Positions 299 through 14,456 of a DNA stretch of 39,255 nt are shown here, piece by piece. Position 1 is the first letter of the stretch. The number at the start of each line of letters is the position of its first letter. The notes under the pieces are model-generated. The model was not told where the DNA came from and made no database searches. It saw only the letters and a list, made by a program, of their open reading frames with translations. The stretch is from Chloroflexia bacterium (GTDB taxonomy: Bacteria > Chloroflexota > Chloroflexia > DTKN01): contig JAFGKG010000040.1 of assembly GCA_016928715.1 (NCBI GenBank), forward strand, positions 1 to 39,255. Reading direction: 5' to 3'. The position numbers and the translations under genes were made by a program.

Positions 299-384
299 TT
301 GGTCGAGCCAGGAGCCCGGCAAATTCATGCCAGGAGCCCCAGAGATTCGTGCCGAGAGCCCTACAAATTCATGCCAGGAGCCCC
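299..384. repeat. Four-unit 22-bp tandem repeat, family 1
   Basis: Units begin at about 299, 321, 343 and 365, exactly 22 bp apart. The clearest unit reads aaattcatgccaggagcccc (321-340 and 365-384, identical). The unit at 343 is diverged, and the unit at 299 keeps only the gccaggagccc part. Read on the minus strand the units contain ggggctcctggcatgaattt. The array runs into a second 22-bp array starting near 389. Confidence 0.8.
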
Positions 385-388
385 TACT

Positions 389-542
389 TTTGTCCCTACA
401 TCCCGGATGTTAAAAGGCTACATCCGGGATGTAGGATTCGAACATCCCGGATGTAGGGTTTGTACATCCAGGATGTAAGGTTCGAACATCCCGGATGTAG
501 GGTTTGTACATCCAGGATGCAAGGTTCGTAGGTCCCGGATGT
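389..542. repeat. Seven-unit 22-bp repeat of a 13-bp near-palindrome
   Basis: A 13-bp dyad, acatcc-N-ggatgt, begins at 398, 420, 442, 464, 486, 508 and 530, always 22 bp apart. The centre base is c, g or a, and the last two copies each carry changes in an arm. The spacers between dyads alternate (gtttgt or gttcga types), giving a 44-bp super-period. There are no unique spacers, so it is not a CRISPR array. Open frames through it encode only repeat-derived peptides. Confidence 0.92.
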
Positions 543-10966: not shown

Positions 10967-10988
10967 GAAACTGAGAATAGAATACCCG

Positions 10989-11084
10989 GGTCTCCGAGTC
11001 ACGGTTGCTAAAGGATCTCCCATGCGCCGGGGCCGGCAGGGTACGGTGGGAAACTACCGCGCCTCCCAGTACGGAAAGGAGACC
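10989..11084 (+). promoter_or_regulatory. Molybdenum/tungsten cofactor (Moco/Tuco-type) riboswitch
   Basis: The leader matches my memory of the Moco RNA motif: CTCCGAG near its start, and a GGTGG-GAAA-CTACC hairpin (11045-11058; GNRA tetraloop) followed by CGCGCCTCCC. The closing stem P1 pairs GGTCTCC (10989-10995) with GGAGACC (11078-11084). It lies between the promoter and an AOR gene, whose product needs a tungsto- or molybdopterin, so the context agrees. The 3' strand of P1 is also used by the downstream terminator. Whether the ligand is Moco or Tuco cannot be decided here. Confidence 0.8.
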
Positions 11085-11127
11085 ACCGGTCACTCCCCAA
11101 GGAGGGCCAGGTGGTCTCTTGCTTTTT
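11079..11127 (+). terminator. Riboswitch expression platform: intrinsic terminator
   Basis: GAGACCACC (11079-11087) is the exact complement of GGTGGTCTC (11110-11118), followed by TTGCTTTTT. The loop contains a further ctcc/ggag pairing. GAGACC is shared with the P1 stem of the aptamer, so P1 and the terminator exclude each other. Confidence 0.8.
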
Positions 11128-11300: not shown

Positions 11301-13046
11301 ATGAGCAAAATCCTACGCGTCAACATGGAAAACCGGACCGCAGAGTTTCAGGAGGTCCCCGATCAGTACGCCTTGATGGGCGGGCGCTGGCTGACGACCT
11401 CGATCGTCTGTGACGAGGTCGAACCGACCTGCCATCCCCTGGGGCCCAAGAACAAGATCGTAGTTGCCCCAGGGATCGTAACCGGGACCGCCGCGCCCAC
11501 CAGCGCGCGCATCTCGGTGGGCGGCAAAGCCCCTCTGACCGGCACCATTAAGGAGGCCAATGCCGGATCGATCTTTCCCTACCGCATGGCCCAAATGGGC
11601 CTCAAGGCCATCATCATCGAGGGGCAGCCCGAGGATCCGGAGCAGTTCTGGCTGCTAGAGGTGTCGAAGGACGGCGCGACCTTTCAGCCGGCCGACGAGT
11701 ACTGCGGCCAGATGCTCTCCGAATCCTTCCAGGCCCTCTATGAGCGCTACGGCGACAAGACCCCGATCATGGGCATCGGCACCTCAGGAGAGATGCGCAT
11801 GTCCATGGCCGGCATCTGCTTCAACGATCAGGATGGCCGGGCCACCCGCTACGCCGGCCGCGGCGGGCTGGGAGCGGTACTGGGTTCCAAGGGCCTCAAG
11901 TTTATCGTGCTCGATTACAGCGACGCCCCCGGCGTGGAAATCGCCGACAAGGAACTATTCGACACGGGCCGCAGAAAACTGCGCGATGCGCTGCGCGAGC
12001 ACCCGGTCACCAAGCCCGGCGGCGCCCTGAACAGCTATGGCACGGCCGTGCTGATCAATATTCTGAACGAGGCCGGCGGCCTGCCCACGCGCAACTTTTC
12101 CCGCGGCACCTTTGAGGGCGCGGCCAAGATCGCCGGCGAGGCCATCAACGCCGCCTGCCAGGAGCGCGGCGGCGCCGGAATGACCGGGCACGGCTGCAGC
12201 CCTACCTGCATCATCCAGTGCTCCAACGTCTGGCCGGACGAGGACGGCAACGAGGTCGTCTCCTGCATCGAGTACGAGTCCGACTGGGCCTTGGGCGCCA
12301 ACTGCGAGATCGACGACCTGGACGCCATCGCCAAAATGGTCAAGCTCTGCAACGAGTACGGCCTGGACACCATCGAGGCCGGCGTGACCATCGGCGTGGC
12401 CATGGAGGCCGGCCTGGCCGAGTTCGGCGACGCCAAAAAGGCCATCAAGCTACTGAAAAAGATCGGCAAGGGCAAGGGCATCGGCCGCATCCTGGGCCAG
12501 GGTGCCGCCTTCACCGGCCGGGCCTACGGCCTGACCCGCGTTCCCACCGTCAAAGGCCAGGCCATGCCGGCCTACGAGCCCCGCGCGGTCAAGGGCATCG
12601 GCGTCACCTACGCCACCAGCACCATGGGCGCCGACCACACCTCCGGCTATACCATCGCCCCCGAGATCCTGGCCGTGGGCGGTGACTTGGACGCCCTGGA
12701 GATCCAGGGCAAGGCCGAGACCTCGCGCAACCTGCAGGTGGCCACCGCCTTCCTGGACGCTACCGGGCACTGTCTCTTTATCGCCTTTGCCATCCTGGAT
12801 ATCGCCGAGGGCTTTCAGGGTATGATCGAAGAGTGCAACGGCGTACTGGGCACGAACTGGACGGCCGACGACGTCACCGCTATCGGCAAGGAAATCCTCA
12901 AAAAGGAGCGGGGCTTTAACGAGGCGGCCGGCTTTGGTCCCATGGACGATCGCATTCCCGAGTTCATGCACCTGGAGAAACTGCCGCCGCACAATGTGAC
13001 CTGGGACGTTCCCGACGAGATGCTGGACAGCGTGTACGACTTTTAG
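11301..13046 (+). CDS. Aldehyde ferredoxin oxidoreductase family enzyme
   Basis: The product is 581 residues; ATG at 11301 follows AAGGAG by 7 nt. The N-terminal half has AOR features: GGRWLTTSI, APGIVTGTAAPTSAR (pterin-binding N-domain) and GRGGLGAVLGSKGLK. Candidate [4Fe-4S] ligands are C299, C303 and C307 in CSPTCIIQC, with C491 in ATGHCLF. P. furiosus AOR uses 288/291/295/494, so the first spacing here (Cx3C) is one residue longer. The enzyme oxidises aldehydes to carboxylates, or reduces acids, with ferredoxin, using a bis-pterin W or Mo centre in the cytoplasm of anaerobes. The specific aldehyde is not predictable. It is controlled by the leader riboswitch and followed by MoaD-like genes, a common arrangement. 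Confidence 0.93.
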   Translation: MSKILRVNMENRTAEFQEVPDQYALMGGRWLTTSIVCDEVEPTCHPLGPKNKIVVAPGIVTGTAAPTSARISVGGKAPLTGTIKEANAGSIFPYRMAQMGLKAIIIEGQPEDPEQFWLLEVSKDGATFQPADEYCGQMLSESFQALYERYGDKTPIMGIGTSGEMRMSMAGICFNDQDGRATRYAGRGGLGAVLGSKGLKFIVLDYSDAPGVEIADKELFDTGRRKLRDALREHPVTKPGGALNSYGTAVLINILNEAGGLPTRNFSRGTFEGAAKIAGEAINAACQERGGAGMTGHGCSPTCIIQCSNVWPDEDGNEVVSCIEYESDWALGANCEIDDLDAIAKMVKLCNEYGLDTIEAGVTIGVAMEAGLAEFGDAKKAIKLLKKIGKGKGIGRILGQGAAFTGRAYGLTRVPTVKGQAMPAYEPRAVKGIGVTYATSTMGADHTSGYTIAPEILAVGGDLDALEIQGKAETSRNLQVATAFLDATGHCLFIAFAILDIAEGFQGMIEECNGVLGTNWTADDVTAIGKEILKKERGFNEAAGFGPMDDRIPEFMHLEKLPPHNVTWDVPDEMLDSVYDF

Positions 13047-14271: not shown

Positions 14272-14378
14272 GGCAAGGAATACCTTGCCGGTTTTGACCG
14301 GCTAAAGCCTCGACTCCAAAAGGACCCGTAAAAGGTCCCCAATTCCCGGACCGGAGTTGAGGCTTTAGCCGGTGACGG
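14272..14378. repeat. Second copy of the MITE-like core
   Basis: 14288-14378 matches 737-827 over 91 bp with four mismatches and no gaps. The outer 20-bp inverted ends of the first copy are missing. On the left there is instead a small hairpin cggcaagg-aata-ccttgccg (14272-14291). It borders the broken GlcD remnant and the PadR promoter region. Confidence 0.85.
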
Positions 14379-14456
14379 TAAACAGGCAGCCAAAGTTGTT
14401 CTTTTACAGGTGCCAAACGGGTCAGGCGCGAAAGACATCTAGTTACAAACCGGCTA

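Follow-up and report, generated by a model that had tools for sequence, protein, structure and literature searches.

The analyzed window, i.e., the whole 39,255-nucleotide contig C80 of a draft Chloroflexia genome (G000; 3.54 Mb in 226 contigs, 88.9% complete, with 5% contamination), carries a tandem array placed between two gene fragments, both on the minus strand: a helicase C-terminal piece (approximately 110-290) and a PKD piece (approximately 1005-1245). These fragments bear out the proposal of the first-pass annotation that the genes around the array are broken. The left part of the array (the B part, described below) starts at the breakpoint of the helicase fragment. About 170 bp downstream of the array, at positions 726-858, there is a hairpin (MITE-like) element with perfect inverted repeats of 20 bp (TAAATAACTTTCCGGTTTTG) and, inside them, another inverted repeat of 22 bp; its second copy was found at 14279-14394 and dozens of copies are present in the genome. 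A link between the array and this element was considered and rejected, since dozens of hairpin copies occur without the array. The window also contains a Moco (molybdenum/tungsten cofactor) riboswitch (10980-11097; 62.5 bits), located a short distance upstream of a gene for an aldehyde ferredoxin oxidoreductase (11301-13046).

The array proper (398-542, plus strand) is composed of seven dyads of the form ACATCCNGGATGT, starting at 398, 420, 442, 464, 486, 508, and 530, that is, with an exact period of 22 bp. Five of the seven are perfect, i.e., dyads 1, 3, and 5 (ACATCCCGGATGT; 398-410, 442-454, and 486-498, respectively), dyad 2 (ACATCCGGGATGT; 420-432), and dyad 4 (ACATCCAGGATGT; 464-476), while dyad 6 (ACATCCAGGATGC; 508-520) has one mismatch and dyad 7 (AGGTCCCGGATGT; 530-542) has two, both in the inward arm. 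The first spacer, TAAAAGGCT (411-419), directly follows dyad 1. Within the window, 11 matches to the dyad with at most two mismatches were found, compared with a mean of 1.41 in shuffled sequences and with none of 100 shuffles reaching this number, which excludes chance for the window. The TRF tool reported a period of 22 with 0% indels both for the dyads (420-543) and for the units on their left (307-384). The dyad positions, the shuffles, and the TRF result all agree with the earlier description of seven near-palindromes in an unbroken 22-bp period. A coding repeat was ruled out, since 22 bp is not a multiple of three, the frames of the plus strand are interrupted within the array, and those of the minus strand stop at or beside unit 1.

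On the left, the dyads are preceded by the B part (306-397, plus strand), i.e., four 22-bp units resembling GAGCCCnnCAAATTCRTGCC, the last of which is transitional. They keep the phase of the dyads, as had been noted before, and the identity of positions 321-340 and 365-384 was likewise found in the sequence. The other two claims made about the geometry of the array stood only in part. A 44-bp super-period is present in C80 (TRF: 44 bp, 91%) and in C165, another contig carrying an array, and it is absent from the two remaining arrays (C30 and C110), so it looks like a local two-unit duplication and no general feature of the arrays. The placing of the dyads on one face of the DNA is approximate, as 22 bp corresponds to 2.1 turns at 10.5 bp per turn, and with the resulting drift of about 34 degrees per unit successive sites are not strictly on one face.

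Besides the array of C80, three more were identified on other contigs of the draft genome: C110:196-340 (reverse), C30 at approximately 11868-12019 (reverse), and C165:30431-30584. When laid out in one orientation, all four contain exactly seven units and no indels in register. The array end is sharp, since in the 22 bp beyond unit 7, 9-12 of the 12 positions are unlike the dyad. The first spacer is TAAAAGGCT in C80, C110, and C30 and TAAAAGTCT in C165, and the second one is AGGATTCGA or its close variant across the arrays. B-type units precede the dyads in the same 22-bp phase at all four loci; they are clear in C80 and C110 (the only two places in the genome matched by the B-unit pattern) and degenerate in C30 and C165, which have AGTCAAGGCTYAAATCCCCCGA in common before unit 1. 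Outside the blocks the sequences of the four loci are unrelated and identity drops to about 25%. The draft contains 21 perfect dyads, all of them within the four arrays, and no isolated perfect sites. The first-pass annotation had reasoned that a unit scattered over many loci with random phase and number would be ordinary expanding repeat DNA. The search gave the opposite outcome, as the unit was found at four loci, always in the 22-bp phase and seven times at each. Comparable non-coding short-period arrays are rare, as judged from a 422-kb genome sample.

The seven dyads, the nearly identical first spacer, the B-like units on the same side, the absence of indels, and the unrelated flanks together indicate a common ancestor of the four arrays, a single seven-unit block that was copied in its entirety. 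Units of different arrays that correspond in position differ by 17.1% of their bases, and units in non-corresponding positions by 27.5%; none of 5000 shuffles of the unit order reached the observed value (p 0.005 without unit 1). The seven-unit block therefore predates the copying and the spacers diverged afterwards, and the same in-register likeness rules out four independent expansions. As three of the four arrays are localized within 700 bp of a contig end, the repeat-rich surroundings may have broken the assembly near the arrays, and further copies may be missing from the draft.

The neighborhood of the arrays is not conserved: there is no constant gene neighbor across the four loci and the neighboring genes are unrelated. 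In C165, the array lies near the 3' end of a gene encoding an HU-type DNA-binding/DUF4469 protein (L026:6083-6781), whose stop codon falls inside the last array spacer. The possibility that this gene was truncated by the array was rejected, since its alignment with a paralogue encoded at the end of contig C147 reaches residue 230 of 232; the gene looks whole and the array merely supplies its stop codon. Contig C147 carries a different tandem array (L078:518-662; 3.3 copies of 44-bp units, 97% alike), whose sequence is unrelated to the dyad array and near which a piece of the hairpin-element sequence is present. The C110 array, also near a 3' end, is accompanied by an unassigned open reading frame (ORF) with a weak SpoIIAA-like match, followed by an Fe-S/FlpD-type gene. 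The C30 array is placed about 235 bp upstream of the start of an ORF without a Pfam match, and the C80 array lies among gene fragments. A strand bias was rejected as well, because the GC skew of the four contigs disagrees with the array orientation.

The array was absent from 157 other genomes of the class (in the set searched, the order is represented by this genome alone) and, with two mismatches allowed, from 399 other genomes sampled across the phylum. No match was found in 72,556 plasmids or 50,697 phages. The search of GTDB r220 and IMG/VR revealed no array, just single dyad pairs at other spacings (in Nonomuraea, Streptomyces, a Lachnospiraceae MAG, and one viral contig), which were taken as chance matches. 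In the open literature searched, the dyad sequence was found only in one unrelated mouse paper. So far, the arrays are known only in this genome.

Comparison of the four arrays in register revealed that dyads and spacers changed very unequally. In units 2-5, none of the 48 dyad-arm columns varies, versus 15 of the 36 spacer columns (Fisher p 4e-7), and the center base varies between arrays in all four units. For units 1-7, the variable columns number 6 of 84 in dyads and 31 of 63 in spacers (p 6e-9). Within the spacers, the initial AGGGT varies to an intermediate degree (10 of 35 columns), and the last four bases are nearly free (21 of 28). Changes in dyad arms are confined to units 1, 6, and 7, they affect one arm, and the opposite arm never compensates, which indicates that the sequence itself is conserved and not merely the pairing. 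Template-switch correction was considered and rejected, as under it the arms would drift together while remaining matched and no such pattern was found. In units 1 and 7 of all four arrays, the decayed arm is always the inward-facing one (all six affected units) and the outer arms are intact.

A dimeric binder would be expected to leave the center base free and to keep the 6-bp arms fixed, and the pattern, known from four related copies of a single draft genome, is most simply read as selection on a DNA sequence that such a dimer recognizes. The pattern fits the binding of a dimeric protein better than the neutral drift of a minisatellite or an RNA hairpin. The confinement of all 21 perfect dyads to the arrays suggests a binder that would need arrays rather than single sites. 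The array is a dispersed tandem-repeat element, probably functional as a binding array. More specifically, we give slightly better than even chances to the view that these blocks of about 240 bp, dispersed, non-coding, and derived from one seven-unit ancestor, act in cis and that their seven dyads are bound by a dimeric, sequence-specific protein. Each block is composed of roughly four B units and, after them, exactly seven units of 22 bp with the ACATCC-N-GGATGT dyad. A putative dimeric protein of the host would occupy the seven dyads side by side, and the spacing of neighboring dimers, about two helical turns, would make cooperative binding possible. The bound dimers would build a nucleoprotein complex, which would serve either the chromosome (its anchoring or segregation) or a mobile element. 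The varying position of the arrays relative to genes and the absence of isolated perfect sites speak against this view, and the selection argument draws on a few related sequences from one incomplete draft. The earlier suggestion that the dyads are loaded by a dimeric protein is partly supported, by the four loci with a constant phase and unit number and by the invariance of the dyads against the diverged spacers.

The strongest competitor, which we regard as unlikely but still worth serious attention, is a selfish or passive non-coding satellite, i.e., a short tandem repeat copied by recombination or transposition, with no binding role, whose palindromic core would reflect the origin of the repeat and not selection. 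By the definition used for prokaryotic satellites (PMC6749651), a family has four or more tandem units, each 10-200 bp long, and occurs at several places in the same genome, and the four dyad arrays fall under it. Dispersed families of this kind were described in Leptospira interrogans and Methanocella conradii, and such families without known function exist in a few prokaryotes (PMC6749651). Like them, the arrays consist of tandemly repeated non-coding DNA that was copied within one genome to several loci. The repeat-rich area, with the hairpin element close by and three arrays near contig ends, also speaks for a satellite, as do the terminal units, in which decay is strongest, just as it is in satellite arrays, and the 44-bp pattern, which resembles a local two-unit duplication. 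However, the arrays differ from prokaryotic satellites in their constant unit number, apparently selective conservation of the dyads, and two unit types in one phase; each of the four loci has exactly seven copies, without indels, and dyads and spacers of one ancestry changed very unequally, although drift or homogenization would treat both alike. The arrays also share with REP/BIME and MITE-type repeats their intergenic, palindromic, and dispersed character. They differ from these repeats in the low copy number, the lack of a REP-type hairpin, and the fixed seven-unit array: REP/BIME are high-copy palindromes of 20-40 bp, whereas the perfect dyads found here are 13 bp long and confined to four seven-unit arrays. 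Nor do the arrays correspond to CRISPR, which has repeats of 24-48 bp and unique spacers of similar length, whereas here the unit is 22 bp and the 9-bp spacers are mutual variants.

Non-coding multiple sites with cooperative loading of dimers are known from centromere-like arrays of the plasmid parC/parS type, which are bound by ParB or ribbon-helix-helix proteins. The block bound by a dimeric protein would resemble them in its multiple non-coding sites and putative cooperative dimer loading, and it differs from them in being present in four dispersed copies. Two ParB_N genes are localized on contigs C224 and C158, neither of which carries an array. For the canonical 16-bp parS, one near match (on another contig) was found versus one in the reversed control, and the array sequence is unrelated to it. 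That the array represents a new chromosomal anchoring or segregation site, i.e., a fixed seven-dyad array at several loci of one chromosome with a putative dimer recognizing arrays and not single sites, seems to us rather doubtful.

It is improbable that the arrays are what a plasmid or mobile element left at several chromosomal loci, either a replication origin of the iteron type or a transposase end with multiple sites. The likeness to iteron origins lies in the head-to-tail 22-bp units and in their number: the R6K gamma origin has seven 22-bp iterons, pPS10 has 22-bp iterons as well, and the binding of iterons is dependent on their helical spacing (PMC4980987). Iteron origins of plasmids carry tandem sites of 17-22 bp, and the array offers seven candidate 22-bp sites, as read from the sequence. 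The location of the C80 array between gene fragments, common for mobile DNA, and the B part abutting the broken end of the helicase fragment would agree with this origin. On the other hand, classical iterons are direct repeats, whereas the array units are near-perfect symmetric dyads, present at four chromosomal-looking loci and without a match among the plasmids and phages searched. No adjacent rep gene, and no Rep or transposase, was found among the ORFs examined beside the arrays (HU/DUF4469, PIN, lipoprotein-like, PKD, and unassigned), with contig ends limiting the view at three loci, and there is no inverted partner array on the same contig.

It is even less probable that the array acts as an RNA element, whose transcript would form hairpins acting on mRNA or terminating transcription. 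Both strands fold far better than shuffled sequences (z -8.2 and -11.5), but good folding is expected of any tandem palindrome. Compensatory stem changes, which characterize structured RNA, were not found in the alignment of only four sequences (covariation term +0.38), the arm changes being uncompensated; furthermore, there is no Rfam match in the array and its position relative to genes is inconsistent. Finally, the arrays are hardly operators of one transcription regulator: cooperative repressors typically have dyads at a distance of about two turns and the C30 array lies upstream of a gene start, but the other copies follow genes or are distant from a start, with unrelated neighbors, this lack of a constant position makes a simple operator unlikely, and the isolated perfect sites that a transcription regulator would usually have are missing.

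The dyads and spacers of these arrays provide a clean internal control for judging whether a bacterial satellite is functional. If a protein does bind the arrays, the chromosome of this lineage would carry a DNA mark that exists only as arrays and is dispersed over several places, and the seven-dyad block would add another kind of multi-site nucleoprotein platform to plasmid iterons, partition sites, and REP clusters.
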